Positions 1,952 through 9,881 of a DNA stretch of 11,601 bases are shown piece after piece (the stretch's first letter is position 1; each line of letters opens with the position of its first letter). This DNA comes from an uncultured Erysipelotrichaceae bacterium (lineage in GTDB: Bacteria > Bacillota_I > Bacilli_A > Erysipelotrichales > Erysipelotrichaceae): assembly GCA_902784015.1 (NCBI GenBank), contig CACZTC010000001.1, positions 1 through 11,601 on the forward strand, in the 5' to 3' direction. The notes beneath the pieces were generated by a model. That model did not search any database. It saw only the letters and a list, made by a program, of their open reading frames with translations, and was not told the DNA's origin. A program made the translations under genes and the position numbers.

Positions 1952-3502
1952 ATGCGTAATTGGCATTCTTTATTTAGTTTATTAAAATTACCTATCCAAT
2001 TAGTCTTTATTGGCTTTGTTTTTATAGGTTTTTCAAATATTATTACTAATCCTCTTTTTGGCTTGCATACAATTCTGGAAGCAGAAATGATTATAGCTAT
2101 AGCTGAATTAATAGGACGTATTGGTCAATTCTTAGTTGTTAATTTCCCAATTCTATTCTTAATTCGTCTTACTACTAGAAGGGGTGGTAATGCAGCATCT
2201 ATTGCTTCAGCAATATGTGGTTATATTAGTTTTTTAGTAGCTACTATATTTTTTGCGCGTCGCGATTTACCTAGTAATGTTTATAGTAGTATTCTAGGCT
2301 TAAATGTATCTAATTCAACTATATCTTCTTTAGCTAATACAACTAGTTATCCTTTGCAAACAGGATTATTAGGTATCACCTTAGTAGCGATAGTTACATT
2401 ATGGGCTTTCAATAGTTCTAAAAGCAGAAATGAATATAGTATCTTCCCAACTATTTCTAAAGAAATCGCATGTTTTATAAAAACAATATTAATAAGTGTA
2501 TTTTTAGGTATTGCGGTATCTTTTGTTTGGCCATATTTTATTGCCTTTACCCAAAGAATAATACATTTTATTGAAGTAGATGTATCTAATCCGGTTAATC
2601 TAGGTTTATATGGAATGAGTGATAGATTATTTAATATTTTTAATCTAGGTTCTTTAATTAGACAACCATTTTGGTACAGCAATAGTGGTGGATCATGGAT
2701 TACCATTAGTGGTATCTCTGTATCAGGAGATGTAAATGTTTGGACATCACAATTAATGGCGAATTCTATTAGCGGTATGACAGGGCACTTCATAACCCCT
2801 TATTACATCTTAAATATGTTTGCGATACCAGGAATGATATGGGCGATGTATTCGGTTTATAGCGATAAAGAAGAAAGAAGAAAGATAAGACTATTTTGTA
2901 TCTTTGCGACTTTAGTATCAATATTTACAGGTACCTTATTACCAATTGAATTAATGTTATTATTCTTAGCTCCAACTTTATTCTTTATGCATATATTAAT
3001 GACAGGTTTATTCTTTATTATTTGTCAGGCATTACATATATATCTAGGATATTTTACTAATAGTTCTTATATTATTACCGCATTGCCAGGAACATTATTA
3101 GAATATATTAGTTATTTGCGGTATCCTTCGCTATTTTCTTCTTTAATTAGCATAGCTATATTTGGTATTATTGCTTTTATTCTTTATTATTTTATGACCA
3201 AGATCTATTTTAATCGTCTTGCGTTAGATATGTTTAAAACAGGCTCAAAAGAGACTTTAATAAAGTCAGTCATAAAGGCTTCAGGCGGGATTGAAAATAT
3301 CAAAAGTGTAGAAGCTACGATTGCGGATTTATCATTAGTTGTACATGATTCTAGTAAATTTGATGCTTCTAGGATAAAAAGATTAGGTACGATTAAAATA
3401 TTTGAGAATAAAGCAGGCTATTTAGTGAGCTTAGGATCTAGCGCAAAGATGGTCAAAGATGGCATAGAAAAGGAAATGAGGGCTACAATTAGAGAAGCCT
3501 AA
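1952..3502 (+). CDS. PTS EIICB-like membrane protein lacking the phosphorylation cysteine
   Basis: A 516-residue protein resembling glucose-family PTS permeases. About ten hydrophobic segments form an EIIC-like part (about 1-430), followed by a complete-length EIIB-like domain (about 440-512: GGIENIKS, then KRLG, then a closing helix). Key residues are missing. The EIIC signature GITEPIEF reads GTLLPIEL (327-334), so the first Glu is Leu330. The EIIB site, normally DACxTRLR, reads EATIADLS (454-461), so the phospho-acceptor Cys is Thr456 and the following Thr and Arg residues are also changed. Phosphorylating sugar import is therefore unlikely. It may be a facilitator, a sensor or a structural membrane partner. 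No EIIA, HPr or antiterminator gene is nearby. It has a good ribosome binding site and precedes xpaC by 68 bases. Confidence 0.8.
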   Translation: MRNWHSLFSLLKLPIQLVFIGFVFIGFSNIITNPLFGLHTILEAEMIIAIAELIGRIGQFLVVNFPILFLIRLTTRRGGNAASIASAICGYISFLVATIFFARRDLPSNVYSSILGLNVSNSTISSLANTTSYPLQTGLLGITLVAIVTLWAFNSSKSRNEYSIFPTISKEIACFIKTILISVFLGIAVSFVWPYFIAFTQRIIHFIEVDVSNPVNLGLYGMSDRLFNIFNLGSLIRQPFWYSNSGGSWITISGISVSGDVNVWTSQLMANSISGMTGHFITPYYILNMFAIPGMIWAMYSVYSDKEERRKIRLFCIFATLVSIFTGTLLPIELMLLFLAPTLFFMHILMTGLFFIICQALHIYLGYFTNSSYIITALPGTLLEYISYLRYPSLFSSLISIAIFGIIAFILYYFMTKIYFNRLALDMFKTGSKETLIKSVIKASGGIENIKSVEATIADLSLVVHDSSKFDASRIKRLGTIKIFENKAGYLVSLGSSAKMVKDGIEKEMRATIREA

Positions 3503-3539
3503 AATATAGAGTGATTTTGGTTATATGCGAAAACCTTTA

Positions 3540-3548
3540 TGGTATAAT
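3540..3548 (+). promoter_or_regulatory. Extended -10 promoter of the xpaC-AAA unit
   Basis: TGGTATAAT matches the extended -10 consensus TGnTATAAT exactly. Initiation would fall near 3555, giving a short leader with AAAGGTGA (3559-3566) before the ATG at 3571. No good -35 is visible, as is usual for extended -10 promoters. No convincing terminator lies between the PTS-like gene and here, so read-through is possible. Confidence 0.65.
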
Positions 3549-3570
3549 CGTTATGAAAAAAAGGTGAAAT

Positions 3571-4536
3571 ATGAGAAGACGTGGTGGCAATGATTTTATT
3601 TGGATTATCTTTTTAATTCTTCTTTTTTCTGGAGGGATCGGAGCTATTTTTCCATTACTTTTAATAGTAGGTGTGATAATGGCTATCACATTTGCGGCGG
3701 TATCCTCTAGTAAGAATAGAGATGCAATAAGAGAAGAAAGTTATCGAAGAACACAAGCAGGACAATATTATCGTGCTAATCGCCAAGCTAAATATTCAGC
3801 AGCGCAGATGGCTAAAATAAATGTTTATTTAAGAAGTTGGTTTAAGACAAGAAAGTCTTTACCACTTGGTTCTAGCTTTGATTTAAGAATTCATGGGCAA
3901 AGATATGCTTCATTAGCTAGTCTAGATGTTTATCGCGATAATCAATTAATATGTTCACTCAATGACTTTGGTAGAAAATATCCTGATTCATATGATGGTA
4001 TTCTTAGTGAATTAGTAAAAATGGCAGAAAATGGTAAAGCTGAAGATGTTATTGATGTGGATGTAACAGAAACTAAAAAAGAAGAGACACCAGCAAAAAA
4101 AGGTGCCCAAACTTTCATGGATGAAATTGCTTCTTTAAATAATAATATTCCCGATGAGAATATTACTAACGGTTTACATGAAACATATGCTTTATTAAAA
4201 CAAATCCAAAATCTTGAACAAAGATTCCCAAAATCAAAAGATAAACTTACTAAACTATATGATTATTATTTGCCAATCTTAGTGCGTATTTTACGTCAAT
4301 ATGACAATCTTCAAGCTGCCCAAACAGATCCTTCATATCTTGAAACAAAAGAAAAGTTAAATCGTACTATCGATTTGATTAATGATGCAATGAAGACAAT
4401 CATATCTAGTTTGACAGATCAAGACTTCATTAATTTATCTGCAGATATTTCTACCCTTGAAGCTGTTTTACAAAAAGATGGTCTCACTAATGATGGACGT
4501 ATGGAGAAAACTAGCGGAGGTCAAGATAATGGCTGA
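3571..4536 (+). CDS. XpaC-family membrane protein
   Basis: A 321-residue protein of the family named for B. subtilis XpaC (annotated as 5-bromo-4-chloroindolyl phosphate hydrolysis protein, though the family has no proven hydrolase activity). Two membrane segments are visible (about 9-23 and 25-44). A basic stretch and a small mixed domain (about 75-152) follow, then an acidic and Lys-rich linker (about 158-178). The helical XpaC domain is about 195-300, including KLTKLYDYYLPILVRIL (225-241), the most family-like segment. The C-terminal part is expected in the cytoplasm. The ATG of the AAA+ gene lies inside its end (8-base overlap ATGGCTGA), indicating translational coupling. In B. subtilis xpaC sits next to the TelA homologue yaaN; here telA lies two genes downstream. 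Confidence 0.72.
   Translation: MRRRGGNDFIWIIFLILLFSGGIGAIFPLLLIVGVIMAITFAAVSSSKNRDAIREESYRRTQAGQYYRANRQAKYSAAQMAKINVYLRSWFKTRKSLPLGSSFDLRIHGQRYASLASLDVYRDNQLICSLNDFGRKYPDSYDGILSELVKMAENGKAEDVIDVDVTETKKEETPAKKGAQTFMDEIASLNNNIPDENITNGLHETYALLKQIQNLEQRFPKSKDKLTKLYDYYLPILVRILRQYDNLQAAQTDPSYLETKEKLNRTIDLINDAMKTIISSLTDQDFINLSADISTLEAVLQKDGLTNDGRMEKTSGGQDNG
4516..4536 (+). promoter_or_regulatory. Ribosome binding site and 8-base gene overlap coupling xpaC to the AAA+ gene
   Basis: GGAGG (4516-4520) lies inside the last xpaC codons and decides the start of the AAA+ gene at ATG 4529. The xpaC stop TGA (4534-4536) is followed directly by an in-frame TAG. Ribosomes finishing xpaC can restart at once, which suggests the two proteins are made in linked amounts. 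Confidence 0.8.
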
Positions 4537-6703
4537 TAGAAGAAAAAAAAGCGAAGAAAAAGAAAAATTGATGGAAGAAGTTCTATATAAGAATAGAACT
4601 TATGATTCTAATGAAGCTAGTGAAGAAATAGAATTAGTAATAAATGAAAAAGAAAGAGAATTAAAAGAAGCTAAAAATCATACGACAGAAGCGTATGATA
4701 CTTTAAAGTCTGCTGATTTAGCGATGGATGAATTAAATCGCATTCTTAAAAAACAACAAAAAGAATTAGAATCTTTAAGTAATGAAATGAAAAAGACTAA
4801 TAATATCGATCCTAGTCTAATGGATATGGAAAGATTAGAAGCTGATCTTAGAAAAGATTATGGTAGTGATTTTAGTTTAGAAGAAGAGATAAAAGAAGAA
4901 AAAAAGATAATTGATACTGAAAGTATTTTTGATGATATTTATAATACAATCACATCTAAGATCATGGGTCAAAAAGATGCACTCAAACAAATGGTGATAG
5001 CTTTTAGAAGACCTTATGTTATGGGTGAAGAAGAAGGTAAGGCTAAGAATGTTATCTTGGTATGTGGTCCTAATGGTTCAGGCAGACATGAAGCAATTAC
5101 CCAAATGGCACATTCATTAAATGAAAAAGGTGTCTTTAAAAGTCCTGATGTATATACCATTGATATGAGTCGCTATAATAGTGGCTCTCAAGAACAAATC
5201 TTCCTCCAAGACTTATATGAAGCTTTAGAGGGTGAAGGATCAGTAATTTGTTTTGAACATTTTGAAACAGGCTTCCCATCATTTTTAAGAATGATTGATT
5301 CATTAGCTACTACAGGTTCTGTAGTATTAAATAAAAGATATGTTTTAACTAAAGGCGTTCTTGTTGAAAATCAAACAGGCTTAGTTAAAGATGCAGTAGA
5401 TTCTTTATCAGCTAAAGGTAAATATTTAATCTTTATTACAAGTCAAAAAGCATCTAAGGTACAAGATGCCTTTGGTGCTGATTTTATGTATCATGTTTTA
5501 GATACAGTAACTTTAAAAGCACTAGATGAAGAAAGCGTTAAAGCTATTATTAAAAATCAAGCAACAGCTTTAGAAGAAAAAGCTAGAGATAATTTAAAAA
5601 TAAATATTAATGTAAGTGATGAAATACAAAAATGGATTGAAAGCCATTATGATAAGACCCAAGGGGCAGATGGTATCACAAGCATGTATTATGATTTCTA
5701 TGTATCTTTGAGCCATGCTGTATTAGGTGAAGATATTGAAGATGATGGTGCTATCTTAGAAATTAAAAATGATATACCTACTTTGGTTGTAAAGGAAACA
5801 GAATATACATTACCAAGATCTAAGAATAGTGAAGAAGAAATAGCTAGTGTCAATGAAGAATTAGATGAGATTGTTGGCTTAGAGATGGTTAAGAGCTATA
5901 TTAGATCACTACAATCACATATCTCTATGCAACAAAAACGTCGCGAGCAGGGTATGAAAACAGCTGAGATATCTAAACATATGATTTTCACTGGTAATCC
6001 TTGTACAGGTAAAACAACAATCGCTAGATTAATATCACGCTATATGAAAGCTATTGGTGCTTTATCGCAAGGTCAATTAGTTGAAGTTACAAGAGCTGAT
6101 TTAGTTGCACAATATGTAGGTCAAACAGCTCCGTTAACGATGTCAGTAATAAAATCAGCTTTAGGTGGTGTACTTTTTATTGATGAAGCTTATTCTTTAT
6201 ATCGTGGTAAAGATGATTCCTTTGGTTTAGAATGTATCGATACATTAGTTAAAGCTATGGAAGATAATAGAGAAGATTTAATTGTGATATTAGCAGGATA
6301 TAAGAAAGAAATGGCAGGTTTCTTAGAATCAAATTCTGGTTTAAAATCACGCTTCCCTAATTATATTGATTTCCCAGATTATACTGGTGAAGAATTAAGA
6401 AAGATTGCTTGCTTGCAGGCTAAAGGAAAAGGCTATGAGATTGATGAGAGTGTATATGAAGAGCTAGAAGCTTATTTCAATGAAGTACAATCTATCAATG
6501 CGATGGAAGCAGGTAATGGTCGTTTGGCTAGAAATTTAGTTGAGGATGCAATTCTTAAACAATCTGAAAGAATAGTCGGTAAAGATGATGCACATATGTC
6601 ATTATTGATTAAAGAAGATTTCGATTTCACTATTAAAGTTCAGCCTCCAAAACAAAAAGAAGAGACAACATTAGAAGACTTATTAAAGCTAGCTAATAAA
6701 TAA
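4529..6703 (+). CDS. Two-domain AAA+ ATPase: degenerate Clp-like domain plus CbxX/SpoVK-type domain
   Basis: A 724-residue cytoplasmic protein. The N-terminus is a charged coiled coil (about 1-110). Domain 1 (about 145-400) opens with IMGQKDALKQMV, like Clp-type AAA+ proteins. Its Walker A reads GPNGSGRH (180-187), with Arg186 for the catalytic Lys, and Walker B reads ICFEHFE (240-246), with Glu for Asp, so it probably does not hydrolyse ATP. Domain 2 (about 455-700) is of the CbxX/CfqX type (SpoVK, EccA relatives) and looks active: Walker A GNPCTGKTT (489-497), Walker B with Asp552-Glu553, candidate Arg finger 608 in LKSRFP, and a sensor-2-like NGRLARN. ATG 4529 is chosen over an upstream in-frame ATG at 4457 because GGAGG (4516-4520) is spaced about 8 bases from it and the upstream extension lies wholly inside xpaC. 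A terminator follows at 6724-6746. Confidence 0.85.
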   Translation: MADRRKKSEEKEKLMEEVLYKNRTYDSNEASEEIELVINEKERELKEAKNHTTEAYDTLKSADLAMDELNRILKKQQKELESLSNEMKKTNNIDPSLMDMERLEADLRKDYGSDFSLEEEIKEEKKIIDTESIFDDIYNTITSKIMGQKDALKQMVIAFRRPYVMGEEEGKAKNVILVCGPNGSGRHEAITQMAHSLNEKGVFKSPDVYTIDMSRYNSGSQEQIFLQDLYEALEGEGSVICFEHFETGFPSFLRMIDSLATTGSVVLNKRYVLTKGVLVENQTGLVKDAVDSLSAKGKYLIFITSQKASKVQDAFGADFMYHVLDTVTLKALDEESVKAIIKNQATALEEKARDNLKININVSDEIQKWIESHYDKTQGADGITSMYYDFYVSLSHAVLGEDIEDDGAILEIKNDIPTLVVKETEYTLPRSKNSEEEIASVNEELDEIVGLEMVKSYIRSLQSHISMQQKRREQGMKTAEISKHMIFTGNPCTGKTTIARLISRYMKAIGALSQGQLVEVTRADLVAQYVGQTAPLTMSVIKSALGGVLFIDEAYSLYRGKDDSFGLECIDTLVKAMEDNREDLIVILAGYKKEMAGFLESNSGLKSRFPNYIDFPDYTGEELRKIACLQAKGKGYEIDESVYEELEAYFNEVQSINAMEAGNGRLARNLVEDAILKQSERIVGKDDAHMSLLIKEDFDFTIKVQPPKQKEETTLEDLLKLANK

Positions 6704-6723
6704 ATCTTAAATATTCTTACAGG

Positions 6724-6746
6724 AGCACGTCGTTCGATGTGCTTTT
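6724..6746 (+). terminator. Intrinsic terminator after the AAA+ gene
   Basis: AGCACGTC (6724-6731) pairs with GATGTGCT (6736-6743), including one G-U pair, around a GTTC loop. TTTT and then GTTG follow. It lies 20 bases after the AAA+ stop codon and only 4 bases before the -10-like box of the next gene. Confidence 0.75.
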
Positions 6747-6750
6747 GTTG

Positions 6751-6756
6751 TATAAT
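6751..6756 (+). promoter_or_regulatory. -10 box just upstream of the nucleotidase-like gene
   Basis: A perfect TATAAT ends 10 bases before ATG 6767. Initiation about 7 bases downstream would leave a leader of about 4 bases and no room for a ribosome binding site. The expected -35 region falls within the terminator stem and is not consensus. Confidence 0.5.
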
Positions 6757-6766
6757 CATAGCGTAT

Positions 6767-8584
6767 ATGTTTAAAAAGACTATAAAACTTCTCGTACTAA
6801 TTGTTTTATTAGTAACGTCTATAACTATCAGAATAAATGCGGAGGGATCTTCCTTGAAGATTCTTTTTACCACTAATATTTTTGATAATGTTGATGCATA
6901 TAAAGAGATGACTAAAGATGGCTTAGTTACTTATGGTGGCTATAGTCGCTTAAAAACAGTTATTGATGAAAAAAGAGATGATAATACATTACTACTAGAT
7001 ACTGGTAATTTTTCCATGGGTACTATCTATAGTGTTATCAATACTAAAAAAGCACCTGATTTAGCTTTAATGAATACTTTAGGCTATGATGCAATTCTAT
7101 TAGGTGATCAAGAAGTATCTAGAGGAGATGAAGAATTATCTACAATGTTAAGTATCCTTGAAGCCAATCCACCTTTATTAAAAGGAAATATGAATTATAG
7201 CGATGATGGTACGCATAATGTAAATGAATATTATATATATGAAAAAGGTGGCCGCAAGGTTGCAATATTTGGTATTGTTTCAACTGCAAATCTAGATGAT
7301 TCAACAAAAGCATATTTTTCTAGCGAAGAAGAAACAACTCAGCGCTATCTAACAAAAATAAAAAATGAAAGAGCTGATTTCATTATTTGTTTATATTGTG
7401 GTAATGCTTCTGGTGCTACTAATATCGCTAATAATAATCATGATATTGATTTAATTATTTGTGCTGATATGGAAAATGAAACAGAAATTAGTGCTAGTGG
7501 TGTTAAGATAATAGGCTGCTCTAATAAAGGAAAAGAATTAGGCATTGTTGAAATTGATACAAATGGCAAAGTGAATGCTTCTACTGTTTTAATTGATGAA
7601 AGCATTGAAGCTAATGAAGAAATAACCAATCAAATTAAAACCTACCAAAAAGATGTTCAACAAACCGTCCTAACTAGATATGGTTTATCTTTCCAAAATG
7701 TTTTTGCGCAAAATAAATATAATTTGTCAAAACCAAATATGGAAAAAGAGAATTTTGCGCTAGCTGATTTAATAACTGATGCATATCGTAATGCATATGT
7801 ATATAGAGATGATGATAAAGTTAAAACTACTATCTCTATTACTGATGGAGATAGTATTAAAAATGGTTTATATAGTGGTGGTGTTTCAATAAATGAAATA
7901 TTCTCTTTGGTATCAAGCGAAAAAGGCGAAGATGATTTACCAGGCTTAAGTTTAATTAGAGTATATTTATCAGGAAGTGATTTAAGAAATATTTGTGAAT
8001 TAGATGCATCTAAATTAAAAGATATTGAGGATAAACGTCTTTTCTTTGGGGGCATGAAATATGACTACAATAATAATCGACCATTATGGAATAAGGTTGA
8101 AGAAGTATATGTTTCAGCTACCAAAGATTATTTCATTCCAATTAGCGATGATGTCATATATCCAGTTGTCATGAATACAAAGATATATGAAAAATTAGGT
8201 AAGGAATTAGCGGGCTGTGAAGAACATTATAAATGGAGTCCAAAGGGCATCAAAAAAGAAGAGAATCCGGAATTAAGAACGATATTATTAAGAAATAATG
8301 ATGGCACTTTAATAAAAGAATGGTCTAGTATAGCTGCCTATATCAAAAAAGGTGAAAGAGATAATAGTGGTAAATATATTATCAATAAGAATTATGCTTC
8401 TCCTATTATGAAAAAGAAGAATAATGATACCTTGAATCCTATTAATTTATTAAAGAATATTAAAAAAGAAGAAATAGTAAGTATTGGTAAAAAAGCTGGT
8501 TATGTGATTGGTGCTCTAATACTTCTAAAGATATTTATTTATATAATCAATCGCTTATTTAAAAAAGAAAAAACAGATAATTAA
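6767..8584 (+). CDS. Membrane-anchored 5'-nucleotidase-like pseudoenzyme
   Basis: A 605-residue surface protein with the UshA/5'-nucleotidase architecture: signal segment (about 1-25), metallophosphatase-like domain (about 30-290), 5'-nucleotidase C-terminal-like domain (about 310-480), a Lys-rich region and a C-terminal membrane anchor (about 578-598) with a short basic tail. The catalytic motifs are nearly all lost. TNDxH reads TTNIF (35-39), GD of the second motif reads GN (80-81), GNHE reads GDQE (113-116), the later His motifs read CLYCG (208-212) and ICADM (231-235), and NGGxxR reads DGDSIK (360-365). Metal binding and nucleotide hydrolysis are therefore unlikely, and ligand binding or scaffolding is more plausible. 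A start at 6737 is possible but would put the -10 box inside the gene and an odd Cys-rich stretch before the signal; ATG 6767 gives a normal signal sequence. It lies between the AAA+ gene and telA. Confidence 0.78.
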   Translation: MFKKTIKLLVLIVLLVTSITIRINAEGSSLKILFTTNIFDNVDAYKEMTKDGLVTYGGYSRLKTVIDEKRDDNTLLLDTGNFSMGTIYSVINTKKAPDLALMNTLGYDAILLGDQEVSRGDEELSTMLSILEANPPLLKGNMNYSDDGTHNVNEYYIYEKGGRKVAIFGIVSTANLDDSTKAYFSSEEETTQRYLTKIKNERADFIICLYCGNASGATNIANNNHDIDLIICADMENETEISASGVKIIGCSNKGKELGIVEIDTNGKVNASTVLIDESIEANEEITNQIKTYQKDVQQTVLTRYGLSFQNVFAQNKYNLSKPNMEKENFALADLITDAYRNAYVYRDDDKVKTTISITDGDSIKNGLYSGGVSINEIFSLVSSEKGEDDLPGLSLIRVYLSGSDLRNICELDASKLKDIEDKRLFFGGMKYDYNNNRPLWNKVEEVYVSATKDYFIPISDDVIYPVVMNTKIYEKLGKELAGCEEHYKWSPKGIKKEENPELRTILLRNNDGTLIKEWSSIAAYIKKGERDNSGKYIINKNYASPIMKKKNNDTLNPINLLKNIKKEEIVSIGKKAGYVIGALILLKIFIYIINRLFKKEKTDN

Positions 8585-8591
8585 ACAATCA

Positions 8592-8600
8592 TGCTATACT
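8592..8600 (+). promoter_or_regulatory. Extended -10 promoter of telA
   Basis: TGCTATACT fits the extended -10 pattern TGnTATAAT with one mismatch. Initiation near 8607 leaves a leader of about 30 bases with the AAGGAAAGGAA ribosome binding site (8622-8632). No terminator lies between the nucleotidase-like gene and telA, so telA can also be read from upstream. Confidence 0.5.
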
Positions 8601-8637
8601 TGGAAGTAGCTAAATATAAAGAAGGAAAGGAATAATT

Positions 8638-9855
8638 ATGAGCGAAAACAACAACAATAATAATGAAACTAATGTACAAGCTCAAACACAAGCTGAGCCA
8701 GAAATTAAATTAATGTTATCTCCTGAAGAGCTAGAAGAAGAAAATGCTAAACAATTAGCTTTGCTAGCTAATGAGGAACAGGAAGAAGCTAAGAATGTCT
8801 TAGATCCAATCAACGAAAGTAGCTTAACTGAAGCTGAAAGAAAAACAGTAAATGATTTCTCGGAAAAGATTGATATTACTGAATCTAATACTGTTTTACA
8901 ATATGGTTCAGCTGCGCAAAAGAAAGTTACAGATTTTTCTAATACAGCATTAGAAAATGTTAGAACTAAAGACCTAGGTGAAATTGGTGATTTATTAAGC
9001 AACTTAGTTGTTGAATTAAAAACTGATGAAAAAGATGAAAAAAAGGGTCTTTTGGGCATTTTTGGTAAAGGCAAAAGTAAAGTAGAATCTTTCAAAGCTA
9101 AATATGATAAAGCTGAGAATAATGTTGATAAGATTTCTAGTCTATTAGAAGACCATCAAATTACTTTATTAAAAGATATTGCTTTATTAGATGAGCTATA
9201 TGAAAGAAATGGCCAAAACACAAAAGAATTATCAATGTATATTTTGGCAGGACGCAAAAAATTAAAGAGTGTTCGCGAAACAGAATTACCAAATTTAATA
9301 GCTAAAGCTAAAGCTTCTGGTTTACCAGAAGATGCTCAAGCAGCTAATGATCTTGAACAAGCTTGTGTAAGATTTGAAAAGAAACTATATGACTTAGAAT
9401 TAACTAGACAAGTATCTATTCAAATGGGTCCTCAAATTAGACTAGTTCAAAATAATGACACCATGATGACAGAGAAGATTCAAAGTACTTTAGTTAATAC
9501 TATTCCATTATGGAAAAACCAAATTGTCTTATCTTTAGGTATTGAACATTCTCGTGAAGCTATGGAAGCTGAACGTGAAGTAACTAATATGACTAATGAA
9601 TTATTAGCTAAAAATGCAGAGACTCTTCACCAAGCTACTGTTGATGTAGCTAAGGAAAGCGAAAGAGGTATCGTAGATATTGAAACTCTTCAACATACTA
9701 ATGAAGAATTAATTAATACTTTAGATGAAGTACTACAAATTCAAAAAGAAGGAAGAGAAAGAAGAGAAGCTGCTGAGCTTGAATTACGTCGTATTGAAAA
9801 TCAATTAACTGATAAATTATTAGAAATAAATGATCGTCGTGATGTAACAAAATAG
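8638..9855 (+). CDS. telA: TelA-family (toxic anion resistance) protein
   Basis: A 405-residue, soluble, highly helical protein matching the TelA/KlaA family named for plasmid tellurite resistance; B. subtilis YaaN and YceH are members. An Asn- and Gln-rich, acidic N-terminal tail (about 1-75) precedes the family core. The core begins with VLQYGSAAQKKVTDFS (86-101) and KDLGEIGDLLSNL (111-123), then GLLGIFGK (137-144) and long coiled-coil helices to the end. The molecular role of the family is unsettled; it is associated with envelope and stress responses, and direct anion chemistry is not shown. The start is supported by a purine-rich ribosome binding site and the absence of other nearby starts. 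It is terminated by a strong hairpin that overlaps its stop codon. The xpaC homologue is two genes upstream. Confidence 0.9.
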   Translation: MSENNNNNNETNVQAQTQAEPEIKLMLSPEELEEENAKQLALLANEEQEEAKNVLDPINESSLTEAERKTVNDFSEKIDITESNTVLQYGSAAQKKVTDFSNTALENVRTKDLGEIGDLLSNLVVELKTDEKDEKKGLLGIFGKGKSKVESFKAKYDKAENNVDKISSLLEDHQITLLKDIALLDELYERNGQNTKELSMYILAGRKKLKSVRETELPNLIAKAKASGLPEDAQAANDLEQACVRFEKKLYDLELTRQVSIQMGPQIRLVQNNDTMMTEKIQSTLVNTIPLWKNQIVLSLGIEHSREAMEAEREVTNMTNELLAKNAETLHQATVDVAKESERGIVDIETLQHTNEELINTLDEVLQIQKEGRERREAAELELRRIENQLTDKLLEINDRRDVTK

Positions 9856-9881
9856 GGGTTGATAAAACAACTCCTTTTTTT
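9854..9881 (+). terminator. Intrinsic terminator of telA
   Basis: AGGGGTTG (9854-9861) pairs with CAACTCCT (9868-9875), with one G-U pair, around ATAAAA. A run of seven T follows (9875-9881). The stem overlaps the telA stop codon and marks the end of the xpaC-to-telA block. Confidence 0.88.

Follow-up and report, generated by a model that had tools for sequence, protein, structure and literature searches.

Introduction

Genes for XpaC-like and TelA proteins are neighbours in Bacillus subtilis (xpaC-yaaN), Listeria (lmo1966-lmo1967) and Lactococcus (llmg_1115-llmg_1116). In B. subtilis the xpaC-yaaN pair is part of the sigma-W regulon (PMC3498285). For L. lactis, a paper on CesSR lists an xpaC-like gene and telA1 as jointly raised in one of its transcriptome tables (PMC3139573), and a Listeria lmo1967 (telA) mutant reportedly shows greater nisin sensitivity (PMC12791056, citing Collins et al. 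2010). In the portions of the literature compared, no AAA+ gene is named beside these three pairs. Here we describe an 11,601-nucleotide stretch of DNA from an uncultured Erysipelotrichaceae bacterium (contig CACZTC010000001.1 of assembly GCA_902784015.1; the whole stretch is called the window), in which the genes for an XpaC-like membrane protein and TelA enclose those for a two-ring AAA+ protein and an inactive 5'-nucleotidase-like protein, with a gene for a phosphotransferase system (PTS) EIICB-like protein upstream. We put at about even the chance that XpaC, the two-ring AAA+ protein and TelA are one functional module, with the AAA+ protein as remodeller of XpaC-TelA and the nucleotidase-like protein as an accessory.

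The second ring of the AAA+ protein falls in the clade of SpoVK, CbbX and EccA. All three have been described as dedicated chaperones, no protease partners having been found for them, and two are tied to the envelope; SpoVK acts on MurG, a wall enzyme, and EccA takes part in secretion (PMC10659427). Among the titles and abstract openings searched, with subscription papers mostly outside the coverage, none mentions an AAA+ partner for XpaC or for TelA.

Results

The host genome (G000; 1.32 Mb, 208 contigs, 78% complete) is incomplete, and the window corresponds to one of its contigs. Related genomes were drawn from a family sample of 106, all at least 85% complete except G000, a class sample of 296 and a genus sample of 48; of the 16 class-sample genomes with a full-length AAA+ gene, 15 are common to the family sample. 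Members of the host family inhabit the gut and the rumen. Most of the named records among the relatives belong to uncultured Erysipelotrichaceae, several of them filed under Solobacterium, and Lactimicrobium massiliense is also represented. The full-length AAA+ set is counted without five genomes that carry only the second ring, D2 (G397, G327, G387, G377, G406), and includes two truncated matches (G363, G420). TelA is counted above 300 bits, a threshold that leaves out G397, G387 and G327, in which the only TelA scores 250 bits.

In the family sample, full-length AAA+ is carried by 47 genomes, TelA by 55 and XpaC by 54, the long and the short form being counted alike. The AAA+ gene lies wholly inside the TelA set (both, first only, second only, neither: 47/0/8/51, p 4e-22), and remains so with the 250-bit TelA genomes included (47/0/11/48). 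The corresponding counts are 45/2/9/50 for AAA+ and XpaC and 53/2/1/50 for TelA and XpaC. By these tables the AAA+ protein appears to need TelA and XpaC, whereas neither of them appears to need the AAA+ protein. With genera sorted by hand, all 21 AAA+ genera are among the 25 TelA genera of 54 (p 2e-11), and in the class sample TelA is present in all 16 full-length AAA+ genomes. One genome, G376, lacks all three genes, which are present in two other genomes of its genus.

A further family, C2, was considered as a partner and rejected, as it has no match in G000 and co-occurs with neither AAA+ (34/13/34/25, p 0.15) nor TelA (p 0.55); it became our control. The C2 proteins (e.g. L076:5546-6403) have ~270-300 amino acids, carry the motif WFLLKKVLYVQYMVNK, occur in 68/106 family genomes and are often encoded directly 5' of XpaC. 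A Pfam scan of two of them gave no match for one and only below-cut-off matches for the other.

The search yielded 520 places, and gene neighbourhoods were examined at the 80 best (L072-L151). These were picked by the AAA+ gene alone and represent the closest relatives; L139 begins within the AAA+ gene, leaving 79 assessable loci. XpaC stands directly 5' of AAA+ in 79/79, so the recurring adjacency for which the preliminary description of the window had proposed a check is indeed found for this pair. In 54 of these loci there is no space for a further gene, and in 25 one small gene (146-194 amino acids) lies between. This small gene (e.g. L143:9474-9992, in loci within L124-L151) is present in 25/25 loci with that layout and is a possible adaptor. 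A second set of 40 neighbourhoods (L031-L070), which partly overlaps the first and is not summed with it, has an XpaC-like gene directly upstream of AAA+ in 37 and downstream in one (L033); none was found in two, one of which (L034) carries a D2-only protein. In 27 of the 79 loci, the flanking sequence retrieved also contains TelA.

The layout varies by clade and the set is constant. The window has the order XpaC-AAA+, L190 and L191 have XpaC, small gene, AAA+, short XpaC and TelA, and L033 and L218, from another family, have AAA+-XpaC-TelA; the unit also recurs with TelA on a separate contig. In two genomes of a third family (L211, L212), a short XpaC and a 400-amino-acid protein precede TelA, which is followed by a SpoVK/CbbX-like AAA+ protein of ~525 amino acids with a different N-terminus that is not assigned to any domain. 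The 400-amino-acid protein 5' of TelA in L211 has no match in a Pfam scan, and profile comparison of the two AAA+ N-terminal regions, two sequences only, with the first ring of our protein detected no homology. L212 additionally carries a solute-binding plus VWA protein, and the L211 contig stops short of that position. This arrangement points to an exchangeable outer partner around a constant core.

The AAA+ gene of the window starts at an ATG that fits its relatives; the TTG at 4457, given by the list of open reading frames (ORFs), was rejected. The ATG overlaps the stop of the XpaC gene by 8 bases (4529-4536), which confirms the overlap behind the translational coupling claimed earlier and makes the coupling itself plausible. 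The protein has two rings. The first, D1, has the fold of the second ring of the HSP100/Clp proteins without functional Walker A and B motifs: at the places given by alignment to ClpB, the Walker A Thr is His in 79/85 aligned sequences and the Walker B Asp is Glu in 83/85. Thus, compared with the second ring of ClpB, ClpA and ClpC, it has these residues replaced, and it is fused to a ring from another AAA+ clade. In this second ring, D2, the Walker A Lys and Thr and the Walker B Asp and Glu are kept in 85/85 sequences, and the arginines are present in 84/84 rows with a letter there. The AAA_lid_6 domain (PF17866) scores 39.5 bits against a cut-off of 24.3. We assign D2 to the SpoVK/CbbX/EccA clade on an AAA domain with AAA_lid_6 above cut-off, intact Walker A and Walker B, the SRF arginine and the sensor-2 region. 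The protein is none of the three named members, since it stays under the NCBIfam equivalog cut-offs of SpoVK (294/423 bits), CbbX (231/459) and EccA (234/467). It further differs from them in its additional dead Clp-like ring, which is absent from the N-terminal domains named in the passages compared (PMC10659427). An anti-phage role was rejected, a PADLOC scan having returned only weak generic AAA matches to D2.

TelA is a member of its family (PF05816), its match covering profile positions 1-331 of 332 at a cut-off of 30 bits. Hydropathy shows no hydrophobic stretch in it, and a sequence profile searched against the PDB found no ESCRT-III-like fold (best E 0.38). Twenty genus genomes have a second, shorter TelA-like match (117-157 bits, profile ~2-240 to 277; e.g. 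G014:C15:9282-9983). The same host family also holds a Ter-type locus (L186:8937-14591) with a YceG-like gene, a divergent TelA and three TerD-like repeats, these names being given by eye.

The identification of XpaC, by contrast, stands only in part: a PF10112 match is present, but at 24.0 bits it is under the cut-off of 29.8, and we therefore use the label XpaC-like. Short XpaC relatives adjoining TelA score higher on this profile (87.9 bits in L191, 70.9 bits in L212). The window thus departs from xpaC-yaaN in an XpaC of 321 amino acids that is below the Pfam cut-off, as well as in having an extended -10 element and no sigma-W-like match. Three XpaC-like genes lie close to TelA in L219:5238-8407, from an order-mate genome in which AAA+ is on a different contig.

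The features of the window are collected in Table 1.

Table 1. Coordinates of the genes and signals described in the window
Feature	Position	Strand	Remarks
PTS EIICB-like protein	1952..3502	+	weak NCBIfam match; EIIB cysteine lost
Extended -10 element TGGTATAAT of xpaC	3540..3548	+	conserved in near clade
XpaC-like membrane protein, 321 aa (amino acids)	3571..4536	+	PF10112 below cut-off; hydrophobic residues 5-48
Two-ring AAA+ protein, 724 aa	4529..6703	+	D1, residues ~128-421, dead Clp-D2-like; D2, ~431-706, intact SpoVK/CbbX-like
-10-like element TTGTATAAT of nucleotidase-like gene	6748..6756	+	not strict TGNTATAAT; inside over-called N-terminus
Inactive 5'-nucleotidase-like protein, 605 aa	6767..8584	+	PF02872 and CD73/3ivd profile matches; catalytic residues lost
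Extended -10-like element TGCTATACT of telA	8592..8600	+	near-clade TGNTATA[AC]T pattern
TelA, 405 aa	8638..9855	+	PF05816, 403.6 bits
Terminator-like hairpin after telA	9854..9875	+	8-pair stem and T run; consensus match only

All five genes that the preliminary description had placed here are present on this strand. Its statement that three of the five proteins keep a fold and lose catalytic residues also holds, for D1 of the AAA+ protein, the nucleotidase-like protein and the EIIB cysteine of the PTS-like protein.

Upstream sequences were compared after removal of repeats. In the near clade, TGNTATAAT stands at most 70 nucleotides upstream of XpaC in 50/54 distinct sequences and precedes the nucleotidase-like gene in 10/14, and TGNTATA[AC]T stands upstream of TelA in 17/24 sequences versus 13/360 other ORFs. 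Elsewhere TGNTATAAT is seen before AAA+ in 0/54, C2 in 0/38, PTS in 0/7, GH25 in 0/8 and other ORFs in 12/360, a contrast that is approximate because the control ORFs were called mechanically. In the window alone, ~2 sites of this type are expected by chance, and the lone XpaC site is not above that. The divergent clade (L128-L151) has the element before XpaC in 11/22 loci. In the 40 nucleotides before the element, no base outside TATG-N-TATAAT reached 60%. Read from these signals, xpaC-AAA+, the nucleotidase-like gene and telA are likely to be three transcription units. No structured RNA was found in the window at Rfam gathering scores.

Eight divergent-clade loci (e.g. L133:8429, L135:8474) have TTAGCACTC upstream of XpaC, which we take to be one half of a CIRCE-like element; the second half was not seen, and several of these loci also have a divergent coiled-coil-like gene alongside. 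Far from the genes discussed here, positions 227-254 of the window hold a perfect TTGACA-16-TATAAT promoter 5' of the first ORF, ahead of an RNA polymerase delta gene.

The start of the nucleotidase-like gene was set at the ATG that aligns with relatives, and the start at 6737 was rejected; the protein database entry is a still shorter call of 576 amino acids. Simple hydropathy shows a hydrophobic stretch at both ends (residues 1-27 and 576-599). The protein resembles the 5'-nucleotidases CD73 and UshA in its C-terminal PF02872 domain (42.6 bits, scanned from start 6737) and in its family profile, which matches CD73 over both domains (6e-31) and 3ivd (8e-34). It differs from them in having no PF00149 match in a Pfam scan and in the NHE motif, the Asn and His of which are lost in 15/15 family members; it is thus not a 5'-nucleotidase enzyme by these residues. 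Single other ligands survive in some members, for example GH in the last motif. L100, the 16th row of the alignment, was taken out of the count as a separate enzyme that has NHD. The eight nearest database relatives carry PF02872 only, and 12/14 more distant ones also carry PF00149.

The gene is in the flank of 14 of the 79 loci and always directly before TelA (14/14), including L123, where the pair lies ~7 kb from AAA+. In the family sample, full-length relatives are present in just five of the 106 genomes (G000, G034, G377, G405, G424), which makes the protein an accessory of the window's lineage; G377 has it without full-length AAA+, XpaC or TelA. Its proposed membership of the system is therefore supported in part, for the clade of the window but not for the family.

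The PTS-like protein is weakly PTS by its score (154.6 against an NCBIfam cut-off of 591.8) and no PTS EIICB permease by its residues. At the place of the EIIB cysteine, which we set by the EIIB motif, the window has Thr, and the seven of eight aligned rows that show a letter there have Gly, Ser or Thr. An orthologue is present in each of the 29 genus genomes searched, in two pieces in G006; the protein, apparently without the EIIB cysteine, is conserved in these genomes. The gene adjoins XpaC in the window and in G027, where XpaC is cut by the contig end and AAA+ is not assessable, and G012 has C2 between the two. G027 and G012 are the nearest relatives, and both keep TGNTATAAT directly before XpaC. 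In five genomes (G014, G020, G008, G013 and G011) the same strand carries it at a distance of 6-18 kb from AAA+; in the remaining 21, it and AAA+ lie on different contigs or no AAA+ was found. The flank contains it in 7/80 named loci, where 3.6-6.6 kb separate it from the closest core gene. Judged by these positions, the link to XpaC looks like inherited regional linkage, and the gene is probably a mere neighbour.

Discussion

Given the dedicated-chaperone clade of D2 and the stress literature on XpaC and TelA, the AAA+ protein would most simply be a remodeller of an XpaC-TelA assembly. XpaC would be the membrane anchor and TelA the cytoplasmic partner, and the AAA+ protein, as a dedicated and non-proteolytic remodeller, may act on their assembly or load TelA on XpaC and unload it. 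The D2 ring would hydrolyse ATP and pull on a partner, and the dead D1 ring with the N-terminal coil may serve docking and ring stability. In the clade of the window, an inactive nucleotidase tethered outside the membrane would have joined TelA as an accessory that binds a ligand or serves as an anchor. These parts could form the membrane-spanning assembly that the preliminary description had drawn. What we observe is the presence and adjacency of the genes, the place of AAA+ within the TelA and XpaC set, the folds, the residue losses and the promoter pattern. We infer physical contact, the identity of the substrate, the direction of the reaction and the topology, and by analogy with Bacillus, Lactococcus and Listeria, a role in envelope stress.

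Several observations weigh against this reading. The p-values are without correction for shared ancestry. Among the 48 genus genomes, TelA above 300 bits is missing in 4/46 AAA+ genomes, namely G023 (98% complete), G010 and G042 (both ~70%), and G035 (short paralogue only), and two of the 45 genomes with AAA+ and XpaC (G363, G420) carry only short XpaC. TelA occurs without AAA+ in 8/106 family genomes, so the AAA+ protein would be dispensable for part of XpaC-TelA function. The named loci are the closest relatives; over the family sample, the best XpaC is <1 kb from AAA+ in 36/47, and TelA is <4 kb from AAA+ in 26/47 and on another contig in 21/47. A rough sigma-W pattern upstream of XpaC has one match only (L101) and gives no support here for stress induction. 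The predicted model of the XpaC-like protein is weak (predicted local distance difference test 69.9, predicted template modelling score 0.38), and a Foldseek search with it gave no match at E < 0.001, a null that says little with such a model. Finally, we know of no interaction or phenotype for the two-ring AAA+ protein.

The distances would suit a different arrangement, in which the AAA+ protein, like SpoVK with MurG, would be the dedicated chaperone of some other envelope target, with XpaC only recruiting it to the membrane and TelA sharing XpaC separately. The AAA+ gene is nearer XpaC than TelA, the secretion role of EccA offers another precedent, and genes resembling wall genes lie in certain neighbourhoods: L051 has an Ig-like plus phage-lysozyme protein, and others have GH25 or, in L031, an acyltransferase-like protein (by eye) and a weak, below-cut-off GDSL match. 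We hold this somewhat unlikely because AAA+ tracks TelA as tightly as XpaC, even with TelA on a separate contig. The same constancy of the set, across differing orders, other families and separate contigs, argues against inherited synteny, that is, an ancestral block kept through descent without joint action. The genomes are related, the tests lack a phylogeny correction and the PTS-like gene is itself an example of lasting regional linkage in the genus. However, the neighbouring C2 gene does not co-occur, AAA+ is confined to the TelA set in the family sample and G376 lacks the three together, which leaves synteny alone quite improbable.

Inclusion of the PTS-like permease in a full five-part complex, the broadest form of the shared unit first proposed, is very improbable. 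Its proximity to XpaC, adjacent in the window and in G027 and with one gene between in G012, its single orthologue in each genus genome searched and its presence near a few named loci are consistent with it, and a dead EIIB would suit a sensor. Yet within the genus, the part of the family searched for it, in 21/26 genomes besides the window, G012 and G027 it is off the AAA+ contig, or AAA+ was not found, and xpaC keeps its own -10 element even beside it. XpaC, AAA+ and TelA therefore recur as a unit, joined by the nucleotidase-like protein in the clade of the window, and the PTS-like protein is only weakly tied to them. To a tellurite or metal resistance locus of the Ter type, a class reportedly surveyed by Anantharaman et al. 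2012, we give the least credence of all. The name TelA refers to toxic anion resistance, and in L. cremoris a small RNA reduces ORF53, TelA, TelB, TelC and tellurite tolerance (PMC13109727). None of ten window proteins has a TerD match, though, and no Ter partner was found, YceG_bac reaching 15.9 of 25 bits in a 160-amino-acid ORF; moreover, the TelA of the Ter-type locus L186, beside its TerD-like repeats, is a different one of ~250 bits.

The reading of a remodeller for XpaC-TelA can be carried further, to a new two-ring class in which a dead HSP100 ring fused to a SpoVK/CbbX-type motor drives assembly and disassembly of an XpaC-TelA membrane scaffold, while swapped outer modules set what is sensed. 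We consider this extended form rather unlikely. If true, the scaffold motor would be a bacterial counterpart, in logic, to the motors that recycle membrane-remodelling polymers, and the swapped modules would be the dead nucleotidase in the window and the solute-binding plus VWA protein in L212. XpaC and TelA have long been tied to envelope stress without a mechanism, and the AAA+ protein suggests how the pair may be powered. A motor found almost only with XpaC and TelA offers a concrete handle, namely an ATPase with a dead and a live ring together with its probable membrane adaptor and probable substrate, and through it the SpoVK/CbbX/EccA clade gains an envelope-linked candidate with an unusual architecture.

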